Assembly (NCBI RefSeq): GCF_005930495.1
Contig: NZ_SJEX01000042.1
Coordinates: 1 to 42,369, forward strand
DNA length: 42,369 bases
Direction: 5' to 3'
Source of the DNA: Modestobacter excelsi
GTDB taxonomy: Bacteria; Actinomycetota; Actinomycetes; Mycobacteriales; Geodermatophilaceae
The position numbers and the translations under genes are program-made. This document shows, piece by piece, positions 4,477 through 30,468 of this stretch (positions are counted from its first letter, which is position 1; every line of letters starts with the position of its first letter). The notes below the pieces were generated by a model. The model worked only from the letters and a program-made list of their open reading frames with translations. It did no database searches and was not told the DNA's origin.

Positions 4477-4477
4477 A

Positions 4478-9028: not shown

Positions 9029-9637
9029 TCAGATGTCGAGGTCCTCGACGTCGGGGCCGCCACCCTTTCCGGTGAGGTTGTCGTAGAAATCGGCCGGCAT
9101 CTTGTCGCGCAACTCCTCGAGGCTGTCGGCGACGTCGAGGGCTTCCTCGGTCGGGCCCCACCACGAGCCGCGGGAGACCTCGCGGCGGAGAGTCTCCTTG
9201 AGTCCCTGCTTGAAGTCGCGCCAGTTCTCGGCCGGATTGCCGCCGCGCTCGCGGTCCCAGCGGTCCCAGTCCCAATGCCAGCCGCCGCGCCAGGTCTCCG
9301 GGTCCGACCACGCCGCCCAGTCGGGCATCCGACTGGTGTGCAGCGCGAATTTCTCTTTCGGGGTCCGGTAGACCCGGAACCGCTCGATGCGCCGGTCGGC
9401 GGTGGGGTGTCGCCACTCGCCGAGCAGGACGCCGGAGAACCGCTGCTCGCGGCGGTCGGGGCCGCTGCCGGCCCGCACCGTCACCTGCTCGTAGCCACCC
9501 TGGCGGGCCTCCTCAGCGTCGACGAACCGGCGAAGGGCCCGGGACACGGCCGCGGAGAGGTTTCCGCCGGCCAGGGCCTGGGCCCGCTCGTACAGCGCAA
9601 TGTCGTCGTCGGACACGTAGATCGTCTTGTTGGGCAT
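9029..9637 (-). CDS. EXLDI-type protein with N-terminal ribbon-helix-helix domain
   Basis: A 202-aa protein. Residues 1-45 (MPNKTIYVSDDDIALYERAQ..., SAAVSRALRRFV) look like a CopG/Arc-type ribbon-helix-helix DNA-binding domain. The middle is Trp-rich (WRGGWHWDWDRWD), and the chain ends in VEDLDI, the C-terminal E-x-LDI signature for which the family is named. Function is unknown to me beyond likely DNA binding. The start is firm: GGAGGAG lies 6 nt before the ATG. A GTATACGTATAC palindrome 34 nt upstream is a good candidate for its own operator. It is intact although its neighbours in the island are decayed. Confidence 0.8.
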   Translation of the reverse strand: MPNKTIYVSDDDIALYERAQALAGGNLSAAVSRALRRFVDAEEARQGGYEQVTVRAGSGPDRREQRFSGVLLGEWRHPTADRRIERFRVYRTPKEKFALHTSRMPDWAAWSDPETWRGGWHWDWDRWDRERGGNPAENWRDFKQGLKETLRREVSRGSWWGPTEEALDVADSLEELRDKMPADFYDNLTGKGGGPDVEDLDI

Positions 9638-9670
9638 CCGGGCTCCTCCGCTTTGCCGTCACCAGGGTGG

Positions 9671-9688
9671 GTATACGTATACAAGTAT
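9671..9688 (-). promoter_or_regulatory. Candidate RHH operator GTATACGTATAC
   Basis: A perfect 12-bp palindrome (9671-9682) made of two GTATAC hexamers, followed directly by a third related unit AAGTAT (9683-9688). It is AT-rich in a GC-rich surrounding and lies upstream of the EXLDI-type gene, where its -10 region should be (TATACC on the minus strand). RHH proteins bind tandem short palindromes of this size. Confidence 0.5.
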
Positions 9689-9846
9689 TGGACCGGCTCT
9701 CGGCTCATCGGTCAAGAGGGGCTGGACGGGCGCTGGCCGCGAGCGTGGCGAGAGCCATGCCCGACGTGGTGTCCCCGATAGGGTCGGCGCGAGCGCGCCT
9801 GTCTCGGGTACCGGACAGCGTGGCCGGGATCTTCCGAGCGGTGTCG

Positions 9847-10150
9847 ATGAACGTGCGGGAGCGCCTGCGTACAGGTGTCCCGGGTGCGCTCGAGCAGCGG
9901 GACAAGGCATTGGTGGCCGTGCTGCGAGCCACGCTCGCTGCTCCGGACAACGCTGAAGCGGTCGCGCTCACGGATGATCAGGAGCCTCGCGCTGCAGGAG
10001 ACCCCGGTCGGGGTCGGTGTCCTGGAGGTCGCGCGCCGAAAGCTGTCGGATGAGGACATGGAGCTTCTCGTACGCGCCGCGATCGACGAGCGGCAGACGG
10101 CGGCACGGGGCTACGAGCAGGCGGCGAGCACCAGGGCGGTCGGCGACTGC
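9847..10150 (+). pseudogene. GatB/YqeY-domain protein, frameshifted
   Basis: Frame 1 from the ATG at 9847 reads MNVRERLRTGVPGALEQRD, then LRATLAAPDNAEAVAL, the N-terminal half of a YqeY protein. The second half continues in the next frame (ETPVGVGVLEVARRKLSDED, ELLVRAAIDERQTAARGYEQ), so one indel lies near 9975-9995. The last part (GGRRLRHG) appears in the third frame, implying a second indel near 10120. YqeY proteins may aid tRNA amidation. This copy is dead and is a passenger of the island. Confidence 0.8.
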
Positions 10151-11490
10151 GCCATGGGGTCGACACGCCCACCGCCGTCGCCGCACTGCCCCACGCATCC
10201 GAGACGCCGCCGGACGACCGAACCCAATGACTTGACCGCTGACATCGCCGCAGCCTTCATCCGAGGGCTGATCAACGTCACCCCGAGCTGCCTGAAGTCA
10301 GTACACCTCTTGCGCGTGCGGTACGACTCGACCGGGACCCGTCGCGGGCGACGTAGCGACGGTGCTCCCTGCGAGGGGCTGGCTGGGGGCAATACATGTG
10401 CCGGCCATGATCTTGATCAATCGTGGGAGGCGGGCATGGCGCGCGCGCACGACGACGGGCCTTGATCAGATTGGGCGGCTGGGGTGGGCGCGGTGATCGG
10501 CGCTGTCAATGCCTCCGGGATCACCTCCACAGGCAGACTGGCAGCGGCCGCTGGGAGCGGCCCTTCCGCAGCGGACAGATCGCACCCCACGGCGGGCCCT
10601 GAGTGCTGGCTCAGCGCGACGTCAACCGGAGCGGCACCCGTGGTGCTCCCATGACCACCGAGACCCGTGGCAGCGGTCATGGTGACGCCGTTGTGTTCAC
10701 GTGGCTGGTGGGTCGTAGTGCGACGAGCAGCGCGCAGACGGTGGAGCCATCCCGGGCGCCACTGACCAGCCCCGCCGCCTCCGGCCGGGGCCGGCCCGGG
10801 GCCGCTCTTTGGGCAGATGGCTGCGGCCGCCCGACCTTGGCTGGTGATGCCGGCGGGATGGATGCGCAGTTCCGGAACGGAGGTCACTCGAGCAGCGTGC
10901 CGACCGTATTCATCAGACCAGTCAGCCGCGATCGGCAGCGTGTCCATCCAGACATCCCGGTCGTCGACGTCGGGCGCGCGGTGCCGCGCCCGGGTTGGAC
11001 CCGACCGGATCACCGGCCGGGCACTGGGCACACGTTCATCGGCGTCTGCGCCGTAGGTCTGCGCCACACCTCTGTCATCGGCAGTCCTCCGCCGCCGTGG
11101 GACAGACTCTGGTCCCCCTGATGCACACCGAAGGCCGCGCCAACTGCTCTCGGGGACTGCTCCCACCAACAGCTTCCGACTCAAGCTTGCCTCGCCCTGT
11201 CAGCTCAGACGGACTCCCCGGTGGCCTCGTTCGTCGTCCCCGGGTCTGTCGTTCCCGGGGTCTGTCGTGCTCGGTTCGGGTGTCAAGGGCGCCAGCAGTG
11301 TGACGGTAGTTCGCCGACGACTGATGCCCAAAGCGGCTCCTGCACTGGCGAATGTCGGCAGTTGTGGGCTGGCCGACACGCACGAGTGGACCGCCGAGGT
11401 CGGCGAGCAGTTCCGTAGATGCCGCCCAGGGCACCTCGCGCCCGGACCCGACAGCTGTCAGATGCGCCAACCGCTGCGCGACTTCGCGTG
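10151..11490. other. Long stretch without a recognisable gene
   Basis: About 1.3 kb inside the island. The longest open frame (minus strand, 11184-10417) has no start signal, domain or sensible composition. Other frames are short and mutually overlapping. I see no repeat array, tRNA or integrase. It may be degraded coding sequence too old to read. Confidence 0.4.
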
Positions 11491-16789: not shown

Positions 16790-17929
16790 CTAGAACAGCC
16801 GGCGGACCGTGGCGGCGAGCGTCCGGGCGGTCAGCCGGCCGTCGGCCAGGCCCAGCGCGACGACGTCGTCGAACACCCGCTGCTCGTCCACGGCCGCCCG
16901 CACGGCGGCGTCCATGAGCACCGGCCACCGGCTCAGCTGGGACGCGACGCCCGACGACCGCAGGTGCGCACCCAGCCGCTGGTCCAGCGCCCGCTGCAGC
17001 ACCTGCCCGGCCTGCGCCCCGGCCGCCGACGCCGCCCCGGCGAGCGCGCCGGACAGCACCGCGTAGAAGATCCCCTCGCCGGTCAGCGGGTTGATCAGGG
17101 ACTGCGCGTCCCCGGCCAGCAGCACCCGCCCGCCCGGCAGCCGCGGCCGGCCGGTCGACAGCGGCAGCCGGTGCGCCCGCAGCCCGGTCGGCTCGACCCC
17201 CGGCAGCATCCGGTGCAGCCCGGCGACGAGCTCCGCGCGGGTCACCCCGCCCGAGACGAGCTCCCCGTACCCCACGTTGGCCCGCCCGTCGCCGAGCGGG
17301 AACGACCAGGCGTACGCCGGCCAGCGCTGCTCCGTCGTCGTCACCACCTGCACGCCGTCCATCCCCGGCAGCACGGGGGCGTAGCCGCGGATCGCGACGG
17401 CCAGCCGGTCCGGCCGGTTCGGGAGCACACCCAGGGCCCGGCGGACGACGGACTCCGCGCCGTCGGCACCGACCAGCACGGGCGCGCTGAACCGGCCGTC
17501 GACCTCGACGTGCGTCGGGTGGACGACGACCGAGCGCACCGTGTGCCGCTGGAACCGGGCGCCGCCGGCCAGCACCTGATCGAGCAGCCGCCCGTCGAGC
17601 ACCGCCCGCGGGACGACGACCGACGGGCGCGCCGTCTCCCGCTCGACCGTCGTCCCGCGCGGGCTGCGCAGCCGGAGCCGGGGGACGGTGGGGAAGCCGT
17701 CGGTCAGCGCAGCGACGTCGATGCCGAGAACGGCCAGCACGTCCAGCGCCTCGGGGGCGATCCCGTCGCCGCAGACCTTGTCCCGCGGGAAGGCGGCGCG
17801 GTCGAGCACCAGCACGTCGGCGTCCGGACGGGCCCGGCGGACGGCGGCGGCACACGCGGCACCGGCCGGGCCGCCCCCGACGACGAGGACGTCCGCGCGC
17901 TCCGTGCTCAGGCGGCCGGCGGGGTCCAC
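16790..17929 (-). CDS. Geranylgeranyl reductase family FAD-dependent oxidoreductase
   Basis: A 379-aa flavoprotein. The N-terminal dinucleotide motif is [20 protein letters not shown], followed by [11 protein letters not shown], the family's CGDG-type signature, and later [20 protein letters not shown], which contacts FAD. Members saturate isoprenoid chains, for example of menaquinone or lipids; the substrate here is unknown. The start is the GTG at 17929, which overlaps the end of the LOG gene by 22 nt, so the two are probably co-transcribed. A menB gene elsewhere in the window makes menaquinone side-chain reduction conceivable, but this is not specific evidence. Confidence 0.88.
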
Positions 17930-18476
17930 TTGCGGGCCGGGTGCTCGTAGTCCCCGACGAAGGCCAGCAGCCCGGCCGCGTCGTGCACCACGCCGAGCGC
18001 CTCGAGCCGATTGGCGGCGAGGTAGCCGTCGTCGACCATCCGGCGCAGCTGGGTGAGCTGCGGCTGCCAGAACCCGTCGACGTCGAGGAACGCCGTCGGC
18101 TTGGCGTGCAGGCCGAGCATCCCCCAGGTCCAGGCCTCGAACAGCTCCTCCAGCGTGCCGGCGGCGCCGGGCAGCGCGACGAAGGCGTCGGCGAGCTCGG
18201 CCATCCGGGCCTTGCGCTCGTGCATCGTCTGCACGACCTCGATCCGCGGCAGGCCCGGGTGCGCCAGCTCGTCGTCCACCAGGTGCTGCGGGATCACCCC
18301 GACCACCTCACCGCCAGCGGCCAGCGCGGCGTCGGCGACGACGCCCATCAGCCGACGTGCCCGCCGCCGTAGACGATGCCGATCCCCGCCCGGGCCAGCT
18401 CACCGGCGAAGGTCGCGGCGGCCTGCTGGTGGGACGGCGGCCCGGCCTGGGACCCGGTGAAGACGGCGATGCGCAC
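17908..18476 (-). pseudogene. LOG-family (cytokinin riboside monophosphate phosphoribohydrolase-like) gene, split by a frameshift
   Basis: From GTG 18476 the frame reads RIAVFTGSQAGPPSHQQAAA and ends [11 protein letters not shown] at a TGA (18350-18348). The rest of the protein continues from the overlapping ATG at 18348 ([20 protein letters not shown]), with the LOG motif as [13 protein letters not shown]. An intact gene would read [17 protein letters not shown]; the loss of one C explains the break. The 42-aa and 146-aa products overlap as TGATG, so reinitiation could still make both halves. It may also be a sequencing error. LOG enzymes remove ribose phosphate from nucleotides. Confidence 0.75.
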
Positions 18477-18504
18477 GCCGCGACGGTATGCGCATCGCCG
18501 TTCC

Positions 18505-18564: not shown

Positions 18565-19023
18565 TCAGGCGTAGGCGCGGGTGACCCACTCGGCGATGCA
18601 GACCGGCTTGTCGCCGCCCTCGCGCTCGATGGTCACGGCGAAGGTGTTCTGCAGCCCGCCGGCGACCTCCTCGACGTCCTTGAGCGTCACCCGCGCCCGG
18701 ACCTTCGAGCCGACCGGCACGGGCGCGGGGAACCGGACCTTGTTCAGGCCGTAGTTCACGCCCATCTTCGCGTCGGTGATCTCGTAGGTCTGGGAGACCA
18801 GCGGCACGAGCAGCGACAGGGTCAGGTAGCCGTGCGCGATGGGGCCGCCGAACGGGCTCTCCTTCTTCGCGCGCTCCACGTCGACGTGGATCCACTGGTG
18901 GTCACCGGTGGCGTCGGCGAAGAGGTTGACCGCGTCCTGGGTCACCTCGTACCAGTCGCTGGTGCCGAGCTCCTGGCCCTTCAGCGAGGGCAGGTCGGCG
19001 AGGGTCGTCGTGGTGGTGGTCAT
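18565..19023 (-). CDS. MaoC-family enoyl-CoA hydratase (CouM-like)
   Basis: A 152-aa hot-dog-fold hydratase. The hydratase-2 motif is present: FADATGDHQWIHVDVERAK (catalytic Asp and His), then FGGPIAHGYLTLSL. It would add water to the double bond of an enoyl-CoA such as p-coumaroyl-CoA. It is the last gene of a four-gene operon; its ATG overlaps the ligase stop as ATGA. In the actinobacterial p-hydroxycinnamate pathway a hydratase acts between the CoA ligase and the SDR dehydrogenase, which matches this context. The operon ends with a 56-nt terminator-like repeat. Confidence 0.88.
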   Translation of the reverse strand: MTTTTTTLADLPSLKGQELGTSDWYEVTQDAVNLFADATGDHQWIHVDVERAKKESPFGGPIAHGYLTLSLLVPLVSQTYEITDAKMGVNYGLNKVRFPAPVPVGSKVRARVTLKDVEEVAGGLQNTFAVTIEREGGDKPVCIAEWVTRAYA

Positions 19024-20564
19024 GCGTCCTCCTCGGTGAGCACGAACGTGTGTCGTAGGTCTGGCTTGCGGATCTTGCCGGTCGCGGTCTTCGGGAGCTC
19101 GGCCACGTAGCGGACCTCCTTGGGCACCTTGAACCCCGCGAGGCGTTCCCGCAGCGTGGCGCGCAGCGCGTCGCCGTCCTGCGGGGTGCCGGGTGCGGGG
19201 ACGACGACGGCCAGGCCGACCTCGCCCCAGTGCGGGTCGGGCACCCCGATGACCGCGACCTCCTGCACCTCGGGCAGCTCGAGCATCACGGACTCGACCT
19301 CGGCCGGGTACACGTTCTCGCCCCCGGAGATGATCATGTCCTTGTAGCGGTCGCGGATGTAGAGGTAGCCCTCCTCGTCGGTCGAGCCGGCGTCCCCGGA
19401 GTGGTACCAGCCGTCGACGATCGCGGCCGCGGTGGCCTCGGGGGAGTTCCAGTACCCGGCCATGATGTTCGGCCCGGACAGCACGATCTCCCCGACCTCC
19501 CCGGGCGGGCACTCCGTCCCGTCGGGCCGGACCACCCTCACGTCGGTGAAGAACTGCGCCTTGCCGGCCGACCCGACGTGGCTCACCGCGTCCGCGCTGT
19601 CCAGCGACGTGCCGGCCGGCGCCGACTCGGTCATCCCGTAGGCCTGCTGCACGGTGACCCCGCGGTCGAGCCAGGTGCGCAGCAACGGCAGCGGGAGCGG
19701 TGCTCCGGCGGCGCCGATGGTGCGCAGCGCCGAGAGGTCGAGGGTCTGGAAGCCGGGCTGGCGGCTGAGCGCGTCCAGCATCGTGGGGACGGCGAAGAAC
19801 GACGTCACCCGCTGCTCGGCGATGACCGCGAGCGTGGCCGGCGGGTCGAAGCCGCGGACCAGCACCCCGCAGCCGCCGCGCATCAGGGTCGGGTTGAGCG
19901 TCCCGTTCAGCCCGCCGATGTGGAACAGCGGCGCCAGGGCGAGGGTCCGCTCGTCCGGGGCGAAGTCGAAGCCGAGCACCTGGCTCATGCACGACCAGGT
20001 CATGTTGCCGTGGGTGAGCACCGCGCCCTTGGGCCGGCCGGTGGTGCCCGAGGTGTACATGATCAGGCAGATGTCGTCGAGGGTCACCGCCTCGTCGCGC
20101 TTGACCGGGTCGGCGTCGGCGAGCAGCTGCTGCCAGTCCAGGGAGCCGGCCCCGCCGGCCAGCGGCGGTTCAGCCGCGATCCACTCTCGGACGGCGGGCA
20201 GCGCGGTGCGCAGCGTGTCCGCCGTCGTCCCGTGCTCCCGGCCGTGCACGACCAGCGACGCGCCGGAGTGCTCCAGGACGTACTGCGCCTCTGGGGCGGT
20301 GAGCCGGGCGTTGACCGGCACCCAGATCGCGCCGAGCTGGCCGCAGGCGTAGAGCGACTCCAGGCCGGCGGGGTGGTTGGCGCCGAACCAGGCGACCCGG
20401 TCACCCCGCTGGACCCCGAGCCGGGCGAGCGCCTCGGCGGCGCGCCGGACCCGCAGCGCGAACTCGCCGTGGGTGGTCGTCGTGCCCTCGAACCACAGCG
20501 CCGGCTTGTGCGGGGCGCTCCGCAGGTGCCGCTCGGGCCAGGAGCCCAGGCCGGCGTTCCTCAC
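19020..20564 (-). CDS. Acyl-CoA ligase, class I adenylate-forming (CouL-like)
   Basis: A 514-aa AMP-forming CoA ligase. Seen: P-loop MYTSGTTGRPKGAVLTHGN, AYGMTESAPAG, the A8 hinge YIRDRYKDMIISGGENVYPA and the catalytic Lys in PKTATGKIRK. The start is GTG 20564, overlapping the amidohydrolase stop as GTGA; the frame stays open far upstream but only as a shadow of that gene. Operon position suggests it activates a hydroxycinnamic acid (p-coumarate, ferulate) to its CoA thioester. Sequence alone cannot separate this from other aryl or medium-chain acids. Confidence 0.9.
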   Translation of the reverse strand: MRNAGLGSWPERHLRSAPHKPALWFEGTTTTHGEFALRVRRAAEALARLGVQRGDRVAWFGANHPAGLESLYACGQLGAIWVPVNARLTAPEAQYVLEHSGASLVVHGREHGTTADTLRTALPAVREWIAAEPPLAGGAGSLDWQQLLADADPVKRDEAVTLDDICLIMYTSGTTGRPKGAVLTHGNMTWSCMSQVLGFDFAPDERTLALAPLFHIGGLNGTLNPTLMRGGCGVLVRGFDPPATLAVIAEQRVTSFFAVPTMLDALSRQPGFQTLDLSALRTIGAAGAPLPLPLLRTWLDRGVTVQQAYGMTESAPAGTSLDSADAVSHVGSAGKAQFFTDVRVVRPDGTECPPGEVGEIVLSGPNIMAGYWNSPEATAAAIVDGWYHSGDAGSTDEEGYLYIRDRYKDMIISGGENVYPAEVESVMLELPEVQEVAVIGVPDPHWGEVGLAVVVPAPGTPQDGDALRATLRERLAGFKVPKEVRYVAELPKTATGKIRKPDLRHTFVLTEEDA

Positions 20565-21436
20565 CGCAGCCCCAGGGCCCGGATCGCGTTCTCCTTCATG
20601 ATGAGCGGCTTGACCTCCGGCTTGATGTCCAGCTGCTCGAAGTCGTTGATCCACCGCTCGGGGCGCAGCAGCGGGTAGTCCGAGCCGAAGAGCACCTTGT
20701 GCTTCAGCAGCCCGTTGGCGGCCTTCACCAGTTGCGGCGGGAAGTACTTCGGCGACCAGCCGGACAGGTCGATGTAGGCGTTGGCCTTGTGGGTGGCCAC
20801 CGAGATCGCCGAGTCCTGCCAGGGCACCGAGGGGTGCGCCATGATGATCGTCAGGCCGGGGAAGTCGGCGGCGACGTCGTCGAGCAGCATCGGGTCGGAG
20901 TAGCGCAGCTTGATCCCGCGCCCACCCGGCAGGCCGGCGCCGATGCCGGTCTGACCGGTGTGGAACAGCGCCGGGACGCCGAGGGCCTGCAGCTCCTCGT
21001 ACAGCGGGTAGACCGCGGGGTCGTTGGGCTCGAAGCCCTGCAGCGAGGGGTGGAACTTGAACCCGCGGACGCCGTGGGACTCCACCAGCTTGCGGGCCAG
21101 CCGGATGCCGGCCACCCCGCGGGCGGGGTCGACCGAGCCGAACGGGATGAGCACGTCGGGGTGCTCCGCTGCCAGGTCGGCGATCTCCTCGTTGGACAGC
21201 GCCGGCTGACCGGTGGCCATCTCGGTGTCGACGGTGAAGACGACGGCGGCCATGTTCTTGGCCCGGTAGTCCGCGGCGATGTCCGGGACCGTCGGGTCGT
21301 AGGGGTCGCCCTTGAAGTACTTCGCGGCGGCCGCGGACAGCTCGTCGTCCAGGGCCATGTGGCCGTGGGTGTCGGCGTGCACGTGGGTGTGGACGTCGAT
21401 GGCGACCAGCGCGTCGAGGTCCAGCTGCAGGGTCAC
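20561..21436 (-). CDS. Amidohydrolase-family beta-ketoacyl-CoA hydrolase (CouO-like)
   Basis: A 291-aa metal-dependent amidohydrolase. Metal ligands are visible in AIDVHTHVH (HxH), FKFHPSLQ, MAHPS and LFGSDYPLL. The best functional match is 4-hydroxyphenyl-beta-ketoacyl-CoA hydrolase, which splits the beta-keto side chain hydrolytically to give the aromatic acid and acetyl-CoA, replacing a thiolase. The call rests on the family resemblance and on the flanking SDR, ligase, hydratase and MarR genes. The start is GTG 21436, overlapping the SDR stop as GTGA. Other members of the family are decarboxylases, so activity needs a test. Confidence 0.82.
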   Translation of the reverse strand: MTLQLDLDALVAIDVHTHVHADTHGHMALDDELSAAAAKYFKGDPYDPTVPDIAADYRAKNMAAVVFTVDTEMATGQPALSNEEIADLAAEHPDVLIPFGSVDPARGVAGIRLARKLVESHGVRGFKFHPSLQGFEPNDPAVYPLYEELQALGVPALFHTGQTGIGAGLPGGRGIKLRYSDPMLLDDVAADFPGLTIIMAHPSVPWQDSAISVATHKANAYIDLSGWSPKYFPPQLVKAANGLLKHKVLFGSDYPLLRPERWINDFEQLDIKPEVKPLIMKENAIRALGLR

Positions 21437-22341
21437 TTGGGGGGCTCCGGCAGCTGCTGCCCCACCGTCTGCAGTGAGCCCTGGAAGGCCTTCGGCCAGA
21501 CCTCGGCGATGGCGTCGGCGGACCAGCCGGTGCCGTCGGCGAACTCGACGACGACCTCGCTGGGGTGCGACCACAGCGCCAGCCGGTCACCGCCGATGCC
21601 GACCGCCTGGCCGGTGATGCCGGCGGCGGCGTCGGAGGCGAGGAAGGCGACCAGCCCGGCGGCGTCCTCGGGGGAGCCGAAGCCGAGCTCCTGGCGGGCG
21701 AAGGCCGGCAGCGGCTCCCCGGCCTGCAGGGCGTCGACGTAGGGCTTGAGGAACGGCACCGTCTCGGTCATCGCGGTGGCGGCGACCGGGACGATCGCGT
21801 TCACGGTGATCTCCGCCCGGGCCAGCTCCATGGCCCAGGTGCGGACCATGCCGACGATGCCGGCCTTGGCCGCGGCGTAGTTCGTCTGGCCGAAGTTGCC
21901 GACCTGGCCGGTGGGGGAGCCCACGCAGATGACCCGCCCGCCCTCACCCTGCTCCCGCATCCGGACGACGGCCGCCCGCGTGCAGGTGAACGTCCCGCGC
22001 AGGTGGGTGGTGATCACCGCGTCGAACTGCTCGTCGGTCATCTTCCACACCGTGGTGTCCCGCAGGATGCCGGCGTTGTTGACCAGGACGTCGAGCCGGC
22101 CGAACTCGCTGACCGCCCGGTCGACCAGCGCCTGGGCCGCCTCGCTCGAGCCGACGGGCACGACCTCGGCCACGGCCGTGCCGCCGGCCTGGGTGATCGA
22201 GGCGACCGCGGCGTCGGCGACCGCGGCCTCGACGTCGTTGACCACGACGGAGGCGCCGCGGCGCGCCAGCTCGGTGGCATAGGCGAGGCCGAGGCCCCGT
22301 CCGGATCCGGTGACGACGGCGACCTTGCCGGACAGGTCCAC
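21433..22341 (-). CDS. Short-chain dehydrogenase, 3-hydroxyacyl-CoA type (CouN-like)
   Basis: A 302-aa SDR. Cofactor motif TGSGRGLG (near residue 11), structural NNAG, and a catalytic set Ser-x12-Tyr-xxx-Lys (GSPTGQ to NYAAAK). It would oxidise the beta-hydroxyacyl-CoA made by the MaoC hydratase. It is longer than a classical SDR, with a C-terminal tail (SEVVVEFADGTGW) also seen in multifunctional beta-oxidation SDRs. It is the first gene of the operon; the start is GTG 22341 with GGAG 5 nt upstream. Its promoter (TTGACA, 18 nt, TACGTT) overlaps a MarR-type operator. Confidence 0.88.
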   Translation of the reverse strand: MDLSGKVAVVTGSGRGLGLAYATELARRGASVVVNDVEAAVADAAVASITQAGGTAVAEVVPVGSSEAAQALVDRAVSEFGRLDVLVNNAGILRDTTVWKMTDEQFDAVITTHLRGTFTCTRAAVVRMREQGEGGRVICVGSPTGQVGNFGQTNYAAAKAGIVGMVRTWAMELARAEITVNAIVPVAATAMTETVPFLKPYVDALQAGEPLPAFARQELGFGSPEDAAGLVAFLASDAAAGITGQAVGIGGDRLALWSHPSEVVVEFADGTGWSADAIAEVWPKAFQGSLQTVGQQLPEPPK

Positions 22342-22376
22342 GGGTGCTCCTCAACGAGACAGGGGGTGGTCTGGGC

Positions 22377-22410
22377 AACGTAGGTGCGTATCGTGGAGCT
22401 TGTCAACGAT
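22377..22410 (-). promoter_or_regulatory. Promoter of the cou-like operon with MarR operator
   Basis: On the minus strand a perfect -35 TTGACA (22406-22401) and -10 TACGTT (22382-22377) are 18 nt apart. An inverted repeat ATCGTGG/CAACGAT (22390-22410, 7-nt spacer, one mismatch) covers the -35 box. The divergent MarR gene starts just beyond it, so one operator can control both. Confidence 0.7.
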
Positions 22411-22420
22411 GGAGGTGCGC

Positions 22421-22849
22421 ATGGGTCAGCCCCTGGCCGACGACCTGGGTTTCCTGCTCTCCCGCGCCAGCGGGCAGGTCGTGCGGGTGACGAACGCCGC
22501 CCTGGCCGAGCACGGGCTGCGCGTGCGGTCCTACTCGGTGCTGGTGCTGGCCTGCGAGGCCGCGGACGGGCTCAGCCAGCGCGAGCTGGCCACCGTGCTC
22601 GGCCTGGACCCCTCCCAGGTGGTGCTGCTGGTCGACGAGCTCGCCGCCGCCGGGCTGGTCGAGCGGCAGGCGGCGGAGGCCGACCGGCGCACCCGGCTGG
22701 TGGTCCCCACACCCGAGGGCCGACGGGTCCGCGACGCCGCCGGCCTGGACGCCGACGCCGCCGTCGAGGCCCCGCTGGGCCTGCTCGGGGACGCCGAGCG
22801 CGACCGGCTCCGGGACATGCTCACCCGCATCTGGACCGCCACCGGCTGA
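22421..22849 (+). CDS. MarR family regulator (CouR-like)
   Basis: A 142-aa winged-helix repressor. Recognition region: LSQRELATVLGLDPSQVVLL, wing: RQAAEADRRTRLVVPTPEG. The ATG at 22421 is chosen over that at 22409 because GGAGGTG (22411-22417) then forms the ribosome site. It is divergent from the SDR-amidohydrolase-ligase-MaoC operon, as couR is in the p-hydroxycinnamate cluster of Rhodococcus, where the repressor is released by p-coumaroyl-CoA. That effector is an inference here. The 56-nt repeat starts 4 nt after its stop. Confidence 0.88.
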   Translation: MGQPLADDLGFLLSRASGQVVRVTNAALAEHGLRVRSYSVLVLACEAADGLSQRELATVLGLDPSQVVLLVDELAAAGLVERQAAEADRRTRLVVPTPEGRRVRDAAGLDADAAVEAPLGLLGDAERDRLRDMLTRIWTATG

Positions 22850-22923: not shown

Positions 22924-23784
22924 CTAGCGGAGGTGGGCGCGGAGGCTGCGCTCCAGGGCTGCCCGGGCGGCGGGGGCGAGGCCGTCGAAGACGCGCCGGT
23001 AGACGGCGCTGCTGACCGCGGCGGGCCAGGCCGGGCCCAGCTGGGCGGCGGGCAGGCCCGGGTCGGTGCGCAGCAGGGACAGCCAGTCCGCACCGAGCAG
23101 CGTGAGCTGGGCCAGCGACCCGGAAACCCGGGGCGGGCGGCTCCAGGCGTCGATGAACCAGGTGTGCGCCGCGCGGACGGCCGGCACGTCCCAGGCCCGG
23201 TGGACCAGGCGATGGACGTCGGTCCCCGGCAGCGGCCGGGCGGCGAAGGCGTCGGCCAGGCCGGCCACGTCGGCCAGGTCGGAGCGGCCCAGGACGGCGA
23301 CGACGTCGACCGTCCCCGGCGCGATCCACAGCCCGTCCCGCAGACCGCCGAAGCCGGCCCAGGTCAGCCGCGAGCGCACCCGGTGCCGCAGGTCGCGGCG
23401 GCTCTCCGGCACCGAGTAGCTGAGCAGCGTCCACTCGCCGTCGGGGTGCTCGAACGGCGCGGGGGAGGCGACCCGGTCGGTGGCCCGGCGCAGCACGTCC
23501 TCGGCGAGCGGGGTGAGGGCGTACTCCGCCGTCCGGCCGACCTGCCCCCGGGTGAGCAGCCCGCGCTGGGTCATCCGCTTCAGGGTGGCGCGCGCCGCCG
23601 CCTCGGTGACGCCGAGGTCGGCCAGCAGGTCGAGCAGGGTGACCGAGGGCAGCGGTGGCAGCTCGGCGTCCACGACCAGGGCGCCGAAGAAGCTGAGCAG
23701 CAGCGACTGCGGCCGGTGCGCGGCGCCCGACGCCGACGGTTCCTCGCCGCCGGGTGAGTCCTCGACGGCCGGCAGTGCGCTCAT
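22924..23784 (-). CDS. PaaX family transcriptional regulator
   Basis: A 286-aa regulator of the PaaX family. The N-terminal winged helix includes LLDLLADLGVTEAAARATLKRM; the central PaaX-like domain contains WTLLSYSVPESRRDLRHRVR and GFGGLRDGLWIAP; the C-terminal part holds FIDAWS. PaaX of enteric bacteria represses phenylacetate catabolism and responds to phenylacetyl-CoA; actinobacterial relatives sense various aryl- or acyl-CoA thioesters. The gene is divergent from the Liv-type transporter and ligase operon, with one inverted repeat over both promoters, so these are its likely targets. Confidence 0.9.
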   Translation of the reverse strand: MSALPAVEDSPGGEEPSASGAAHRPQSLLLSFFGALVVDAELPPLPSVTLLDLLADLGVTEAAARATLKRMTQRGLLTRGQVGRTAEYALTPLAEDVLRRATDRVASPAPFEHPDGEWTLLSYSVPESRRDLRHRVRSRLTWAGFGGLRDGLWIAPGTVDVVAVLGRSDLADVAGLADAFAARPLPGTDVHRLVHRAWDVPAVRAAHTWFIDAWSRPPRVSGSLAQLTLLGADWLSLLRTDPGLPAAQLGPAWPAAVSSAVYRRVFDGLAPAARAALERSLRAHLR

Positions 23785-23837
23785 GGAGCCTCCCCGGTCC
23801 CTGCCGCTGAGCCCGGCACAGCGGATCGGATGCGGGT

Positions 23838-23883
23838 AAAGCTAGACACTCTCTTGACGCACGTCGAGGTGTTCTCTAGCTTT
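23838..23883. promoter_or_regulatory. Face-to-face promoters within a PaaX-type operator
   Basis: AAAGCTAGA (23838-23846) and TCTAGCTTT (23875-23883) are perfect inverted repeats 28 nt apart. The plus-strand promoter has -35 TTGACG (23854-23859), 17 nt, -10 TAGCTT (23877-23882). The minus-strand promoter has -35 TCGACG (23867-23862), 17 nt, -10 TAGCTT (23844-23839). Each -10 box lies in one half-site, so a dimer bound here would shut both promoters. Confidence 0.75.
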
Positions 23884-23945
23884 TGCGTGACCTGGACCAC
23901 GACGACGCGCGATCGGGTCCTGCCGGCCGAACCAGGAGGACGTCC

Positions 23946-25511
23946 ATGTCCCCGCCCCTGCTGTCCGTCGAGCACCTCGACGTCGTCTACGACGGCACCA
24001 TCAGCGCCCTGTCCGACGTCTCGCTCACCGTCGACGAGGGCCAGGTCGTCGCCGTCCTGGGGTCCAACGGCGCCGGCAAGACCTCGCTGCTGCGCGCGAT
24101 CTCCCGAGCGCTGGGTCCCTACGGCGGCACGGTCACCGGGGGCACCGTCCGGTTCGCCGGCGACGACCTGGCCGATCTGGACACCGCCGCGGTCGTCCGC
24201 CGCGGACTGGTGCAGGTGCCCGAGGGGCGGCGGGTGTTCCGCGACCTGAGCGTCGAGGAGAACCTGCGGGCCGGCGGCTACACCATCCGCGACGGCAAGG
24301 CCCGGTCCGAGGCGCGGGACCGGGTGTTCGACCTCTTCCCGATCCTGGCCGAGCGGCGCGACCAGCCCGGCGGCCTGCTGTCGGGTGGTCAGCAGCAGAT
24401 GCTGGCGATGGGCCGCGCGCTGATGGCCTCCCCGAAGCTGCTGCTGCTCGACGAGCCGTCACTGGGGTTGGCGCCGCTGCTGGTCGACCAGATCGGCGAG
24501 ATCGTCACCGAGATCAACAAGCAGGGCACCGCGGTGCTGCTGATCGAGCAGAACGCGGTGATGGGCCTGCGGGTCGCCGACGCCGCCTCGGTCCTGGAGG
24601 TCGGGCGGGTCACCGCGGCCGGCACGGCTGAGGAGCTCTCGGCCAGCGACGAGGTGCAGGAGCGCTACCTGGGCGTCGCCGTTCCGGTGGTGGCCACCGA
24701 GCCGGTCGTCGTCGCCGAGCCGGAGATCCCCACCGCCCAGCCGCCGCAGCGGCTGACGGTGGAGGGGCTGACCGTCCGGTTCGGCGGCATCACCGCGCTG
24801 TCCGACGTCAGCTTCACCGTCGAGCCGGGCACCGTGCACGCGCTGATCGGCCCCAACGGCGCGGGCAAGTCCACCCTCGTCAACGTCCTGGGCGGGGCGT
24901 ACCGGGCGACCGAGGGCACCGTGCACTACGGCGACGCGGAGCTCACCGCGCTGCCGGCGCACCGGGTGGCCGGGCTCGGCGTGGCCCGCACCTTCCAGAA
25001 CATCTCCCTGGCCCTCGAGGACACCGTCGAGGACAACCTGCTCGTCGGCCGGCACCGGCTGATGCGCTCCGGGGTCGTGTCGGGGGCCTTCCGGACGCCG
25101 AGGGTGCGGCGCGAGGAGCGCGAGCACCGGGAGACCGTCGGCGGCCTCGCCGAGCTGCTCGGCATCGCGCACCTGCTGCGCACGCCGGTGCACACGCTGT
25201 CCTACGGCGACCGCAAGCGGGTGGAGATGGGCCGGGCGCTCGCCGCCCGCCCCTCGCTGCTGCTGCTCGACGAGCCGGTCGCCGGGATGACGCACGGGGA
25301 GTCGCAGGACATGGCCGAGACGATCCGGCAGGTCCGCCGCGACCTGGGGCTGTCGATCGTGCTGGTCGAGCACGACATGCCCTTCGTCATGGGGCTGGCC
25401 GAGCAGGTCACCGTCCTCGACTTCGGCAAGAAGATCGCCGAGGGCGCCCCGGCGGACGTCCAGCGCGACCCGGAAGTCGTCCGCGCCTACCTGGGAGCTG
25501 CAGCGGCATGA
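23946..25511 (+). CDS. Fused LivF-LivG ABC transporter ATPase
   Basis: A 521-aa protein with two complete ATPase units of a branched-chain amino acid (HAAT) type importer. Unit 1 (1-240, LivF-like): Walker A GSNGAGKT (39-46), signature LLSGGQQQMLAMGRAL, Walker B LLLLDEPSLGL. Unit 2 (about 270-521, LivG-like): Walker A GPNGAGKS, signature LSYGDRKRVEMGRALA, Walker B LLLLDEPVAGM. A Val/Pro/Glu linker joins them. These are normally two genes. Starts at ATG 23946 after GGAGGA. Later genes of the operon supply LivH, LivM and the binding protein. Confidence 0.93.
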   Translation: MSPPLLSVEHLDVVYDGTISALSDVSLTVDEGQVVAVLGSNGAGKTSLLRAISRALGPYGGTVTGGTVRFAGDDLADLDTAAVVRRGLVQVPEGRRVFRDLSVEENLRAGGYTIRDGKARSEARDRVFDLFPILAERRDQPGGLLSGGQQQMLAMGRALMASPKLLLLDEPSLGLAPLLVDQIGEIVTEINKQGTAVLLIEQNAVMGLRVADAASVLEVGRVTAAGTAEELSASDEVQERYLGVAVPVVATEPVVVAEPEIPTAQPPQRLTVEGLTVRFGGITALSDVSFTVEPGTVHALIGPNGAGKSTLVNVLGGAYRATEGTVHYGDAELTALPAHRVAGLGVARTFQNISLALEDTVEDNLLVGRHRLMRSGVVSGAFRTPRVRREEREHRETVGGLAELLGIAHLLRTPVHTLSYGDRKRVEMGRALAARPSLLLLDEPVAGMTHGESQDMAETIRQVRRDLGLSIVLVEHDMPFVMGLAEQVTVLDFGKKIAEGAPADVQRDPEVVRAYLGAAAA

Positions 25512-25588
25512 GCGACGAGCGAGCGAGCATCGCAGCGAGCCCTGCGAGCGAGGAGCGGAACGAGCGCGGGAGCGGGGTCAGGGCATGA
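25508..25588 (+). CDS. 26-aa mini-ORF bridging two transporter genes (repeat-like)
   Basis: An ATG overlaps the LivFG stop (ATGA, 25508-25511), and the frame ends at a TGA overlapping the LivH ATG (ATGA, 25585-25588). The peptide begins MSDERASIAAS and is encoded by a GAGCGA-rich, hairpin-prone sequence that looks like a dispersed repeat rather than a gene. It may keep ribosomes moving from LivFG to LivH. I have no evidence for a functional peptide. Confidence 0.4.
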   Translation: MSDERASIAASPASEERNERGSGVRA

Positions 25589-26478
25589 GCTACTTCCTCG
25601 AGCAGGTCCTCAACGGGCTGTCCTACGGACTGGTGCTGAGCCTGATCGCGGCCGGGTTCGCGATCGTCTTCACCTCCACCGGGGTGCTGAACTTCGCGCA
25701 CGGGTCGATCGTGCTCTTCGGTGCCTACCTGGTCGCGGTGCTGCACCCGACGATCGGCTTCTGGCCGGCGCTGCTGGTCGGGATGGCCGGCGCCGCGCTG
25801 GTCGGCGTGCTGATCAACACCCTGCTGGTGCGCCACCTGGCGGACCCCAACCCGGGCACCGCCGCCATCCTGATGCTCGGCGTGGACATCGTGCTGCTCA
25901 CCGAGCTCACCCGGCGGATCGGCAACAAGGTGCTCACCCTCGGCGCGCCGTGGGGCGCCGACGTGGTCCGCTTCGGCGACGTCTCGCTGCCGGCCGGCCG
26001 GGTGGTCGCCGCCGGCGTGACCGTGGTCGCCTTCGCCGGCCTCTGGTACCTCTTCTCCCGCACCGACCTCGGCGTCGGGATGCGGGCGGCGGCCGCCGAC
26101 GGGCCGACCGCCTCGCTGATGGGCATCCGGCTGTCCCGGACCGCAGCCACCGGCTGGGCGCTGGCCGGGGTGCTCGCCGCCGTCGCCGGCGTCTTCCTGA
26201 CCTCCTTCCCCGCGCCCGGCGTGGCCCCGACCGTCGCGCTCAGCGCCTTCGCCGCCATCCCGGCCTGGGTGCTCGGCGGGTTCGACTCCGTCCCCGGCGC
26301 GGTCGTCGGCGGCCTGCTCATCGGGCTCACCAGCGCGCTGGTCACCGGCTACGAGGGCGACCTCTCGCCTTTCCTGGGCACCGGCTTCGGCGAGGTCGCC
26401 CCGTACGTCGTCATGATCGTCGTCCTGCTCGTGCGGCCCTCGGGCCTGCTGGGCAGCAAGGAGGCCGTCCGTGTCTGA
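25585..26478 (+). CDS. LivH-type ABC transporter permease
   Basis: A 297-aa inner-membrane permease of the HAAT family with about eight spans. The start is typical (YFLEQVLNGLSYGLVLSLIA), followed by the hallmark GVLNFAHGSIVLFGAY and the conserved loop MRAAAADGPTASLMGI that meets the ATPase. It forms the channel with LivM. It starts at ATG 25585 and overlaps LivM by 8 nt. Substrate is not readable from the sequence; the PaaX-type control and downstream CoA ligase point to an aromatic or other carboxylic acid. Confidence 0.92.
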   Translation: MSYFLEQVLNGLSYGLVLSLIAAGFAIVFTSTGVLNFAHGSIVLFGAYLVAVLHPTIGFWPALLVGMAGAALVGVLINTLLVRHLADPNPGTAAILMLGVDIVLLTELTRRIGNKVLTLGAPWGADVVRFGDVSLPAGRVVAAGVTVVAFAGLWYLFSRTDLGVGMRAAAADGPTASLMGIRLSRTAATGWALAGVLAAVAGVFLTSFPAPGVAPTVALSAFAAIPAWVLGGFDSVPGAVVGGLLIGLTSALVTGYEGDLSPFLGTGFGEVAPYVVMIVVLLVRPSGLLGSKEAVRV

Positions 26479-27655
26479 GCTGCGCGCATCTCGGTTGGCC
26501 AGCCGGATCGGCGGGCTCGTCCTCGTCCTCGTCGCCCTGGCCCTGCCCCTCGTGCTGTCGGACTTCTGGTTGCAGGCCGGCCTGTTCGTCATGGCCACGG
26601 CCATCGGCGCGATCGGGCTGACCCTGCTGGTCGGCGTCGCCGGCCAGCTGTCGCTGGGACACGCGGCCTTCGCCGCGATCGGCGCCTACGTCTACGCGTG
26701 GTCGACCGGCGAGTCGACGACGACGGTCGGCGGCGCCGGCCTGCCCCCGGTGGTCGGCCTGCTGCTGGCCGCGGCCGTCAGCGCCCTGATCGGGGCTGCG
26801 TTCTCCCCGGTCGCCGGGCGGCTGCGCGGCATCTACCTGGGGCTGGCCACGCTCGGGCTGGTCTTCGTCGTCCGGCACCTGCTGGTCAACCTCGACCAGT
26901 GGACCGGCGGCTTCACCGGCCGCAACGTGGCGCCCTTCGCGATCGCCGGGTTCAGCTTCAGCAACAAGAGCCCGGACTTCCTGGCCGTCGCCGGCGTGGA
27001 GTTCGAGGGCCTGCACCGGCTCTGGTACCTCTTCCTGGTCCTCGCGCTCGCCGCCGCCTGGCTGGCCGGCAACCTGCGCTCGGGACGCACCGGGCGGGCC
27101 TGGGCCAACGTCCGCGACTCCGAGACGGCGGCCGCGGCCATGGGCATCGGGGTCGCCCGGGCCAAGGCATCGGTGTTCGTCGTCTCCTCCGCCTACGCCG
27201 GGGTGGCCGGGGCGATGCTCGCGCTGGCCTACGGCCGGATCGCCCCCGACGTCTTCAGCCTGACGGCCTCCGTCGACTTCCTGGTGATGATCGTCCTCGG
27301 CGGGCTGGGCTCGGTGGGCGGCGCCGTCGTCGGCGCGCTGTTCGTCACCGCGCTGCCACTGGTCCTGGCCGAGTACAGCGGGTCGCTGCCCTTCCTGGCC
27401 GCGCCCGGCTCGGGCGGGTTGGACCCCTCCACGGCGTCCCGGATCGTCTACGGGCTGGCGATCATCGCCGTCCTGCTGTTCCTCCGCGGCGGGCTGGCCG
27501 GCGCCGCCCGCCGGCTCCGGCACCGCGCCTCCCGCACCCCCGCCGCGCCCCCGGCGGCGAGCACCGCGAACCCCGGCACCGCATCCCCCAGCACCCAGGA
27601 CGACGGCCACCCGGCCGAGGTCACCCCCTCACGGTCGAAGGAGACCACTCGATGA
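26471..27655 (+). CDS. LivM-type ABC transporter permease
   Basis: A 394-aa permease, partner of LivH. It contains GQLSLGHAAFAAIGAYVYAW near residue 60, and the ATPase-contact segment WANVRDSETAAAAMGIGVAR near 215. The last 50 residues are a Pro/Ala/Thr-rich, probably disordered tail, longer than usual. GTG start at 26471 inside the end of LivH; its stop overlaps the ATG of the binding-protein gene (ATGA). Confidence 0.92.
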   Translation: MSELRASRLASRIGGLVLVLVALALPLVLSDFWLQAGLFVMATAIGAIGLTLLVGVAGQLSLGHAAFAAIGAYVYAWSTGESTTTVGGAGLPPVVGLLLAAAVSALIGAAFSPVAGRLRGIYLGLATLGLVFVVRHLLVNLDQWTGGFTGRNVAPFAIAGFSFSNKSPDFLAVAGVEFEGLHRLWYLFLVLALAAAWLAGNLRSGRTGRAWANVRDSETAAAAMGIGVARAKASVFVVSSAYAGVAGAMLALAYGRIAPDVFSLTASVDFLVMIVLGGLGSVGGAVVGALFVTALPLVLAEYSGSLPFLAAPGSGGLDPSTASRIVYGLAIIAVLLFLRGGLAGAARRLRHRASRTPAAPPAASTANPGTASPSTQDDGHPAEVTPSRSKETTR

Positions 27656-28911
27656 AGCACCTGCCCCGCGCCTGCGCGCTCTCGCTCGCCGCGGCCACCG
27701 CGTTGGCGATGGCCGCCTGCAGCACCGACCCGGGCGACGCGAGCAGCTCCGGCGGGTCCGGCGACCTGAAGACCGGCAACGGCGTCACCGACTCCTCCAT
27801 CAACGTCGGTGTCCTCACCGACCTGTCCGGCCCGTTCGCGGCCGGAGCCGCGGTGCAGGTGACCGAGTTCAAGGCCTACTGGGACCAGGTCAACGCCGAC
27901 GGCGGCGTGTGCGACCGGGACGTCGCCGTCGACGTGCAGGACCACGGCTACGACCCGCAGAAGGCGGTCACCCTCTACCGCAGCATGGCGCCCGACGTCA
28001 TCGCGCTGCAGCAGGTCCTCGGCGGCCCGACCAGCGCCGCGGTGCTGCCGCTGGCCCAGCAGGACGACGTCTACGTCGGCGGGGTCGGCTGGGCCGGCTC
28101 GGCGCTGCAGTACGAGAACAACCAGCTGCCCGGCGCCTCCTACGCGATCCAGGGCGCCAACGCCATCGACTACATGGTCGATGAGCTGAACGTGGCCAAG
28201 GGGTCCAAGGTCGGCGTCGTCTACTTCGCCGGGGACTACGGCAACGACGCGCTGGCCGGCGCGCAGCACGCCGCGGACGAGCGCGGCCTGGAGGTCGTGG
28301 CGCAGGAGATCACCCCGGCGACCACCGACCTGTCCGCGCAGGCATCGGCGCTGGCCCAGGAGGGCGTCGCCGGCGTGGTGCTGGGCGCCGCGCCGGCCCA
28401 GCTCGCCTCGCTGGCCGGCGTGCTCGGCTCGCAGGGGGCGAACGTGCCGATCGTCGGGCTGAACCCGACGTTCAACCCCTCGCTGCTCACCACGCCCGCC
28501 GCCGACGCGCTGCTGGCCAACGTGTACAGCATCACGGCCGTCGCCCCCTACGCCTCGGACACCCCCGCGGTGAAGACGGCGAGCGACCTGTACACCAAGG
28601 CCGACCCCCAGGGCGCCATCGGCTGGGAGGTCCCGCTGGCCTACGTGCAGGCCGAGCTGCTCAAGCAGGCCCTCGACGGCGCCTGCGACTCCGGTGACCT
28701 GACCCCGGCAGGCGTGGTGGCCGCGCTGCGCGACAGCTCCTCGGTCGACACCCAGGGCCTGCTGCCCGACGGGCTGGACTACTCCGAGGTCGGTCAGTCA
28801 CCGACCACCAGCGTCTACGTGTCCAAGGTCGACGCGCAGGCACCGGCCGGGCTCAAGCTGGTGGACGAGCTCAGCGGCCCCAGCGCGGAGTCCTTCTCCT
28901 ACGGGAGCTGA
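27652..28911 (+). CDS. LivK-like substrate-binding lipoprotein
   Basis: A 419-aa extracellular binding protein of the Leu/Ile/Val-binding (periplasmic-binding type 1) family. The signal peptide ends in a lipobox ALAMAAC with Cys23 as lipidation site, followed by a Ser/Gly-rich linker. The mature part starts INVGVLTDLSGPFAAGAAVQ, the usual first strand of this family. It captures the ligand for LivH-LivM-LivFG. Members of the family bind amino acids, but also aromatic acids such as p-coumarate (CouP of Rhodopseudomonas) and benzoate, which suits this context. Confidence 0.92.
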   Translation: MKHLPRACALSLAAATALAMAACSTDPGDASSSGGSGDLKTGNGVTDSSINVGVLTDLSGPFAAGAAVQVTEFKAYWDQVNADGGVCDRDVAVDVQDHGYDPQKAVTLYRSMAPDVIALQQVLGGPTSAAVLPLAQQDDVYVGGVGWAGSALQYENNQLPGASYAIQGANAIDYMVDELNVAKGSKVGVVYFAGDYGNDALAGAQHAADERGLEVVAQEITPATTDLSAQASALAQEGVAGVVLGAAPAQLASLAGVLGSQGANVPIVGLNPTFNPSLLTTPAADALLANVYSITAVAPYASDTPAVKTASDLYTKADPQGAIGWEVPLAYVQAELLKQALDGACDSGDLTPAGVVAALRDSSSVDTQGLLPDGLDYSEVGQSPTTSVYVSKVDAQAPAGLKLVDELSGPSAESFSYGS

Positions 28912-28914
28912 CCG

Positions 28915-30468
28915 GTGCCCGCACTCGTCGTGAGCGAGCTGCGGGCGCCGGCCGCCGGCCCGGCTGACGGCGTCCTCGGGGACGTCCTCCGCCGGGCCGT
29001 GCGGCGTGCGCCTGCGGACCTGCTGCTGTCCAGCCCGGACACCGGGGAGTCCTGGACGGCGGCCGAGCTGCTGGCCGACGCCGAGGCGGTCGCCGCCGGG
29101 CTGCTCGCCCGGCACGCCCCCGGCGCCCGGATCGCCACCTGCCTGGGCAACGGGCCCGCGCCCGTGCTGGTCCAGCTCGGGGTCGCGCTGGCCGGCATGA
29201 CCCTGGTCCCGGTCAACCCGCGGTCCCGGCCGGCCGAGGTCGAGCACGCGCTGCGGCTCTCCGGCGCCGTGCTGGCCCTGGCCGCGGAGGAGGTGGCGGG
29301 CAACCCGGTGGCCGACCTGTGCGCCGCCGTCGACGGCGTCGAGGTGGTGCGGGTCGGTGCCGACTGGCGGGCCGCGCTGCCCCGGGCGACACCCGGTGAG
29401 CTGCCCGTCGTCGCCCCGCAGTCGCTGGCCCAGGTGCAGTTCACCTCGGGGACGACCGGGCGGGCCAAGGGCGTGCGGATCACCCACGCCGGGATGGTCG
29501 CGACCGGCACGGCGTTCGCCGAGCGGCTGGGCCCGACCGCCGGGCGGGTGTGGTGCAACCCGATGCCGCTGTTCCACACCGCCGGCAACGTGCTCGGCGT
29601 GGTGGGCGCGCTCAGCGCGGGCGCCGAGCACGTCGTCCTGCCCTTCGCCCCGGAGCCGGTGCTGCAGGCGCTCGAGGGGCGCCGGGTGAGCATGCTGTCG
29701 GCCGCGCCGACACTGCTGGACCTGCTGGCCGCCGCGGGGCCGCCCGCGCTCCCCGACCTGCGCGTGCTGTTCACCGGCGGGATGACGGTGACGCCGGCGT
29801 TCGTCGACCGGGTGGAGCAGGTGTTCGGCGCCCGGCTGTCGATCACCTTCGGCATGACCGAGACCTGCGGTGCCGTCCTGCAGACCTCGCCGGAGGACCC
29901 CGACCCGGTACGCCGGGAGACCGTCGGCGCGCCGCTGGCCGGCACCGACGTCCGGATCGCCGGCCCGGACGGCGCTGCCGTCCCCCCGGGGACGCCGGGG
30001 GAGCTGTGGGTGCGTGGCGAGCGGATCACCCGGGGGTACCTCGACGACCCGGTGGCCACCGCCGAGGCGATCGACCCCGTCGGCTGGCTGCACACCGGCG
30101 ACCTCGCCGAGATGTCCCCGGCCGGCGCCTGCCGGGTGGTCGGCCGGCTCAAGGACATGATCAAGACCGGCGGTGAGAACGTGTCCCCGGTGGAGGTCGA
30201 GGAGGTGCTGGTCGAGCACCCGGACGTCGCCCGGGCCGCGGTGGTCGGCGTGCCGGACCCGCGGTGGGGCGAGCTGGTGGTGGCGTTCGTCGTCCCGGCG
30301 GGGAGCCGGGACCCGAGCCCGGCGGAGCTGACCGGGTACTGCCGGGACCGGCTCTCGCCGTTCAAGGTGCCCCGGTCCTGGCGGGTCGTCGACGAGCTGC
30401 CGATGACGGCGTCGGCGAAGGTGCAGCGTGCGGAGCTGCGCCGGATGGCCGCGGCGGAGCCCCGGTGA
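28915..30468 (+). CDS. Class I adenylate-forming acyl/aryl-CoA ligase
   Basis: A 517-aa CoA ligase. Seen: FTSGTTGRAKGVRITHAG, TFGMTETCGAV, the hinge VGRLKDMIKTGGENVSP and the catalytic Lys in MTASAKVQRAELRR. GTG start at 28915, only 3 nt after the binding-protein stop, so it belongs to the transporter operon and probably activates the imported acid. It is distinct from the cou-like ligase at 19020-20564: different hinge sequence and different operon. Substrate unknown. Confidence 0.9.
   Translation: MPALVVSELRAPAAGPADGVLGDVLRRAVRRAPADLLLSSPDTGESWTAAELLADAEAVAAGLLARHAPGARIATCLGNGPAPVLVQLGVALAGMTLVPVNPRSRPAEVEHALRLSGAVLALAAEEVAGNPVADLCAAVDGVEVVRVGADWRAALPRATPGELPVVAPQSLAQVQFTSGTTGRAKGVRITHAGMVATGTAFAERLGPTAGRVWCNPMPLFHTAGNVLGVVGALSAGAEHVVLPFAPEPVLQALEGRRVSMLSAAPTLLDLLAAAGPPALPDLRVLFTGGMTVTPAFVDRVEQVFGARLSITFGMTETCGAVLQTSPEDPDPVRRETVGAPLAGTDVRIAGPDGAAVPPGTPGELWVRGERITRGYLDDPVATAEAIDPVGWLHTGDLAEMSPAGACRVVGRLKDMIKTGGENVSPVEVEEVLVEHPDVARAAVVGVPDPRWGELVVAFVVPAGSRDPSPAELTGYCRDRLSPFKVPRSWRVVDELPMTASAKVQRAELRRMAAAEPR

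Follow-up and report, generated by a model that had tools for sequence, protein, structure and literature searches.

Gene content and layout of the locus

The Modestobacter excelsi genome (5.26 Mb in 178 contigs) includes a contig of 42,369 nucleotides (NZ_SJEX01000042.1), which was analysed over its whole length and is called the window here. The subject of this study is a four-gene operon in the window that encodes a short-chain dehydrogenase/reductase (SDR), an amidohydrolase, an acyl-CoA ligase, and a MaoC-type hydratase, together with a divergent MarR-type regulator gene (Table 1). The operon junctions are three 4-bp overlaps (GTGA, GTGA, and ATGA), and 79 bp separate the starts of the MarR and SDR genes. 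A first-pass annotation of this DNA had described four genes with 4-bp overlaps and a diverging MarR gene, and its coordinates and overlaps were correct. It had also noted the lack of an acyl-CoA dehydrogenase and a thiolase; neither was found by Pfam among the five genes, the genome as a whole not having been searched for them.

Table 1. Genes and predicted operator of the cou-type locus in the window
Feature	Position	Strand	Remarks
couM-type MaoC enoyl-CoA hydratase, predicted R-specific	18565-19023	-	ATG start; Pfam MaoC_dehydratas
couL-type p-hydroxycinnamoyl-CoA ligase (predicted)	19020-20564	-	GTG start; Pfam AMP-binding and AMP-binding_C
couO-type amidohydrolase, predicted aryl-beta-ketoacyl-CoA hydrolase	20561-21436	-	GTG start; Pfam Amidohydro_2
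couN-type SDR, predicted (3R)-3-hydroxyacyl-CoA dehydrogenase	21433-22341	-	GTG start; Pfam adh_short
Predicted CouR box, TCGTTGACAAGCTCCACGA	22391-22409	-	13/19 bases as in the RHA1-like box
couR-type MarR repressor (predicted)	22421-22849	+	Pfam MarR; frame 22421-22846 open

Relationship to the cou genes of Rhodococcus jostii RHA1

A search with the solved CouR protein (5cyv) matched 9 of 28 genomes at E <= 1e-30, and in one of the nine, G007, the matching protein was 100% identical. This genome, called RHA1-like below, is almost certainly that of Rhodococcus jostii RHA1. All five window proteins are homologous to proteins of a single locus in it (L109), with identities of 70% for the SDR, 69% for the amidohydrolase (to CouO), 57% for the MaoC protein, 53% for the ligase, and 52% for the MarR protein (to CouR, in an ungapped alignment over 139 residues). 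We take the SDR and MaoC genes of that locus to fill the couN and couM roles, and the major facilitator superfamily (MFS) gene beside couL is, by its position, presumably couT.

The solved structures nearest to the window proteins point in the same direction. The top relatives of the MarR protein are the CouR entries 5cyv and 3fm5, and the second-best match to it in its own genome reached only 31 bits. The ligase is nearest to 8weu (530 bits) and 8wev (528 bits; named feruloyl-CoA synthetase), the next entry scoring 329 bits. When the ligase was compared with the RHA1-like genome (157 matches, 150 of 212 first-look candidates being scored), the cou-locus ligase ranked first at 566 bits and the second match scored 331 bits. 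The top solved relative of the SDR is 2et6, a (3R)-hydroxyacyl-CoA dehydrogenase, and that of the MaoC protein is Rv0130 (2c2i). Both proteins thus resemble R-specific enzymes, which would suit an R-configured intermediate. The amidohydrolase profile gave 95 bits to 3irs, which is uncharacterised.

The two loci also share their plan in part. In both, the MarR gene is divergent from the SDR gene with a box in the gap between them, and the amidohydrolase takes the place of a thiolase. In the RHA1-like locus, however, the ligase gene stands apart behind the MFS gene, at a distance of about 5 kb from couR, and the SDR, amidohydrolase, and MaoC genes form a series without it, whereas in the window the ligase gene is inside the operon between the amidohydrolase and MaoC genes. 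The box of the window is also closer to the MarR gene than that of the RHA1-like locus. The earlier assignment to the R. jostii cou gene set therefore holds for the five homologues but not for the gene order, couL being separate in RHA1.

In order to see how far the unit is conserved, genome contigs were scanned with patterns of the window amidohydrolase, which captures close relatives only, and the best 80 of 259 loci were compared. A gene was counted as present if it reached 60% identity (50% in the case of MarR) and lay no more than 6 kb from the amidohydrolase gene. The closest named relatives by amidohydrolase belong to the Geodermatophilaceae, the first being Modestobacter altitudinis (96–97% identical). 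Twenty-six of the 80 loci have the SDR, ligase, MaoC, and MarR genes, and six more are short only of an above-threshold MarR; these 32 are the full-set loci below. The amidohydrolase is alone in 31 loci, and 17 carry other subsets, some of them on short contigs. The order SDR–amidohydrolase–ligase–MaoC is the same in 32/32 full-set loci, and the 4-bp overlaps are kept in 24 (SDR–amidohydrolase), 25 (amidohydrolase–ligase), and 28 (ligase–MaoC) of them. Four full-set loci are from Pseudonocardiaceae (L035, L056, L057, and L071) and one (L032) bears an unverified Bacillus label; the others bear the names of Geodermatophilaceae or their genera. Since the SDR, ligase, and MaoC genes lie within 6 kb in 32 of the 80 loci and their order is constant, the grouping is not due to chance. 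The MarR protein has a match at E <= 1e-25 in 38 of the 112 genomes of its family, the Geodermatophilaceae. A literature search on this family with ferulate, hydroxycinnamate, and lignin listed no paper on such an operon, which is the sole basis for regarding its occurrence in this family as new. The cou pathway and its operator are extended to the Geodermatophilaceae with a gene order different from that of RHA1; the known chemistry is unchanged by this operon.

The first-pass annotation had proposed that the amidohydrolase be aligned with CouO-type proteins and placed in a tree. Of the 85 rows in the tree, 15, all from full-set loci, form a well-supported group (97/97) that includes the window amidohydrolase, and the RHA1-like CouO was placed within the same subfamily. 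The full-set loci as a whole do not form one clade (four label changes); L024 and L050 were marked as full-set in this labelling, though each is one gene short by the thresholds, and L041 (at a contig end), L064, L066, and L081 were marked as RHA1-type. The rows include pieces of three paralogs from the same genome and no characterised decarboxylase. The paralog branches are saturated, and the position of the paralogs is thus uninformative.

The gap between the MarR and SDR genes contains a candidate operator. CouR is described as binding an inverted repeat, cATTGA-N5-TCAATg, between couR and couN (PMC4737184). The box of the window was found first as a near-palindrome with a 5-bp spacer and was compared with the RHA1 box afterwards. 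TCGTTGACAAGCTCCACGA and TCATTGACATTCTCAATCA of the RHA1-like locus are identical at 13 of 19 bases, a match equalled in 3 of 2000 dinucleotide shuffles of the 80-base gap stretch. The same score is also reached at 10494-10512 and 3681-3699, and the match therefore counts only through its location. With up to three mismatches, no CouR box other than that at 22391-22409 was found in the window. In the whole genome, 48 sites fit the pattern and 39 fit its reversed form, and these counts do not allow a regulon to be defined. A –35-like TTGACA hexamer lies inside the box, in the orientation of the SDR operon.

Comparable couR–couN gaps were collected from divergent gene pairs in which the MarR and SDR proteins were at least 45% and at least 60% identical, respectively. 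A TTGA-type core is present in 42 of 44 such gaps, repeats included. After removal of four repeats, the best box match is at least 12 bases in all 40 distinct gaps, the match in L064 being no better than chance (27 of 200 shuffles as good) and those in L066 (6 of 200) and in L015, L056, and L081 (4 each) being weaker than the rest. Among the 23 gaps with Geodermatophilaceae names, the window excluded, 21 begin with TCGTTGACA, that of L015 with TCGTTGACG, and that of L050 with TGATTGACA. These gaps share descent and are not independent tests.

Proposed function and the phenol pocket of the regulator

We conclude from the gene content and homology that the operon is very probably a cou operon for the CoA-dependent, non-thiolytic shortening of the side chains of plant-derived p-hydroxycinnamates. 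The ligase would convert the p-hydroxycinnamate into its CoA thioester, the MaoC hydratase would add water to the pre-existing double bond, the SDR would oxidise the resulting (3R)-hydroxyacyl-CoA to the beta-keto thioester, and the amidohydrolase would split the latter to give acetyl-CoA and the aromatic acid. The MarR protein, which resembles CouR, is predicted to bind the single box in the divergent intergenic gap and to be released once p-hydroxycinnamoyl-CoA forms, as CouR is reported to be released from DNA by p-coumaroyl-CoA (PMC4737184). The p-hydroxycinnamate reading of the first-pass annotation agrees with the data in the parts that are open to sequence comparison, namely the CouO match, a ligase nearest to CouL and feruloyl-CoA synthetase, the CouR match, and the CouR-like operator.

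Two systems known to us by their descriptions resemble parts of this scheme. The hpe pathway of strain GD02 includes the synthetase HpeE and the hydrolase HpeF; the latter, with a listed identity of 95% to CouO, is proposed to split a hydroxyphenyl-beta-ketopropionyl-CoA (PMC9618137). The hpe pathway differs in that its beta-keto acid is described as arising by phosphorylation and carboxylation of acetophenones (PMC9618137). In Corynebacterium glutamicum, the repressor PhdR is reported to respond to ring-hydroxylated phenylpropanoids in the form of their CoA esters (PMC7593625); the phd system is likened to the window operon by this description of PhdR only.

Beyond the side chain, p-coumarate would give 4-hydroxybenzoate, which a PobA-like enzyme encoded elsewhere in the genome may convert to protocatechuate for ring cleavage. 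Contig C101 carries a PobA-like gene (491 bits) and, about 1 kb from it, PcaH (336 bits, over the cut-off), beside which a weaker match of 72 bits may be PcaG. The presence of the PobA-like and PcaH genes suggests that p-coumarate could be fully utilised.

Several observations weigh against this assignment. A scan of 22300-22500 found no sigma-70-like promoter, and the RHA1-like couT, an accessory of the side-chain path, gave no tblastn match in the window (E <= 1e-3). In 31 of the 80 loci, the amidohydrolase subfamily is represented but the other four genes are lacking, so that on its own it does not fix the substrate. The score of the PobA-like protein lies below the NCBI cut-off of 538.7 bits. 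The sole VanA_C match in the genome is partial (48 bits, over the cut-off of 23.5), and vanillate from ferulate may therefore not be used further. Finally, the regulator lacks His117, one of the two residues (with Asp10) described as contacting the phenolic 4-hydroxyl group of the CouR ligand (PMC4737184). The window protein has valine at this position, and it also shows the changes Leu23 to Val, Val26 to Thr, Met62 to Leu, and Val113 to Ala.

The ring contacts of CouR are given as Asp10, Gly12, Phe13, Ser16, Val22, Leu23, Val26, Val37, Tyr40, Ser41, Val113, and His117, and the hydrogen bonds to the CoA part are ascribed to Asn27, Arg36, Arg38, Met62, and Ser16 (PMC4737184). In this numbering, the window regulator retains Asp10, Gly12, Phe13, Ser16, Val22, Asn27, Arg36, Val37, Arg38, Tyr40, and Ser41. 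A comparison of 50 regulators, reduced to 46 distinct loci by removing the repeats L002, L089, L090, and L091, showed Asp10 and Arg38 in 46/46, Arg36 in 45/46, and His117 in 11/46. His117 is found in seven loci of Rhodococcus as well as in L044, L045, L048, and L054; histidine is absent from this position in all 26 loci that combine the full set with MarR. The four loci outside Rhodococcus are from Geodermatophilus: the MarR gene adjoins the amidohydrolase gene, a ligase gene is also present in three of them, and no SDR or MaoC gene above the thresholds lies nearby.

The changed phenol pocket is the single open point of interest, and it bears on what we regard as an unlikely but not negligible alternative: the chemistry would be the same, the ring would be that of aryl-acrylates without a free 4-hydroxyl group (cinnamate or 4-methoxy- or methylenedioxycinnamate), and the regulator would be tuned to their CoA esters. 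Besides the residue at position 117, which is not histidine in the window or in 35 of the 46 distinct regulators, a related gene set agrees with this possibility. The four contiguous genes pipU, V, W, and X of Rhodococcus ruber No. 14, described as similar or homologous to hydroxycinnamate genes, are reported to act on the side chain of piperic acid by a beta-oxidation-like route (PMC12753220); the likeness is by description, and the substrate differs in having a C5 side chain on a methylenedioxy ring. On the other hand, Asp10, the second contact of the phenolic hydroxyl group, is kept throughout, a PobA-like gene is present in the genome, and position 117 is occupied by V, L, A, M, Q, T, S, D, E, or H and may be little constrained. 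A more specific proposal, which we consider rather improbable, is that the Geodermatophilaceae operon was re-tuned as a whole: the ligase would have come under the common operator, His117 would have been lost, and the regulator would answer to cinnamates with a bare or alkylated 4-position and not to p-coumaroyl-CoA. A natural CouR with an altered phenol pocket offers a test case for ligand choice in regulators used as biosensors.

It is very improbable that the ligase and MaoC proteins serve fatty or other acyl-CoAs and stand beside cou-type genes by chance. The only above-cut-off NCBIfam model for the ligase, among the 25 shown of 109, describes a general subfamily of long-chain acyl-CoA ligases, and the binding protein of the adjoining transporter of the LIV type is nearest to 4n03, but the constant gene order in the full-set relatives and the lead of 235 bits of the cou-locus ligase in the RHA1-like genome argue for the cou assignment. 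A placement of the amidohydrolase among decarboxylases was named in the first-pass annotation as an outcome that would contradict its reading. A decarboxylase function, with no beta-oxidation-like path in the four genes, is rejected here as extremely improbable, since the profile gave only weak matches of 20–24 bits to known decarboxylases (5-carboxyvanillate and 2,3-dihydroxybenzoate decarboxylases), the longer matches among the paralogs of the same genome are 25–27% identical against 69% for the RHA1-like CouO, and the SDR, ligase, and MaoC genes are its constant company.

Other loci of the amidohydrolase subfamily and neighbouring genes

Among 43 loci examined that lack the full set, 16 have one ligase family near the amidohydrolase gene, mostly just upstream, and the L058 protein of this family exceeds the acetoacetate–CoA ligase cut-off. 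In two Streptomyces loci (L058, 3776-10930; L068, 6696-10870), a class III aminotransferase, an acetoacetate-CoA-ligase-type gene, and a CouO-type amidohydrolase lie close together; L058 has a second aminotransferase-like gene and a GABA-permease-like gene in between. These clusters are possibly routes from beta-aryl-beta-amino acids to the aromatic acid and acetyl-CoA. L074 also carries PPDK_N and PEP-utiliser genes and L080 has members of the same two clusters, as the hpe pathway might predict by analogy. In L072 (Streptomyces fragilis, 4169-10894), genes for an MFS protein, a MarR protein, a crotonase, an AMP-binding ligase, a 3HCDH protein, and a CouO-type amidohydrolase occur together, perhaps as an S-type version of the cou side-chain path. 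The routes in these five loci could all end in an aryl-beta-ketoacyl-CoA, which would support the reaction proposed for the amidohydrolase; it also means that the substrate cannot be told from this enzyme alone.

On the MarR side of the operon, 22924-30468 encodes a PaaX-like regulator, an LIV-type transporter (a fused double ATPase, two permeases, and a binding protein), and a second acyl-CoA ligase; a crotonase-family gene is also present elsewhere in the window. Matches of at least 50% to four genes of the transporter, sometimes rearranged, are present in the retrieved flanking DNA of 19 of the 32 full-set loci; one of the other 48 loci has matches, to three genes, some contigs ending early. 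The transporter was considered as a candidate CouPSTU-like importer, and CouP is described as a LivK-family protein (PMC3610893), but the four solved relatives of the binding protein at E <= 1e-5, headed by 4n03, include none named CouP.

A DUF3237 gene adjoins couR in the RHA1-like locus (L109, 10047-10520). The DUF3237 gene of the window (7200-7916) is a distant relative of it (32% identity over 125 residues) and lies about 11 kb from the operon end and 14 kb from the MarR–SDR gap. At 17908-18480 lies a LOG-family (TIGR00730) gene, in which the frame of the C-terminal part is open downward from 18348 with an in-frame stop just upstream; its N-terminal part, judged by eye, is in another frame, which indicates that either the gene or the assembly contains a frameshift. 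Matches to this gene are found at the same place in several relatives.

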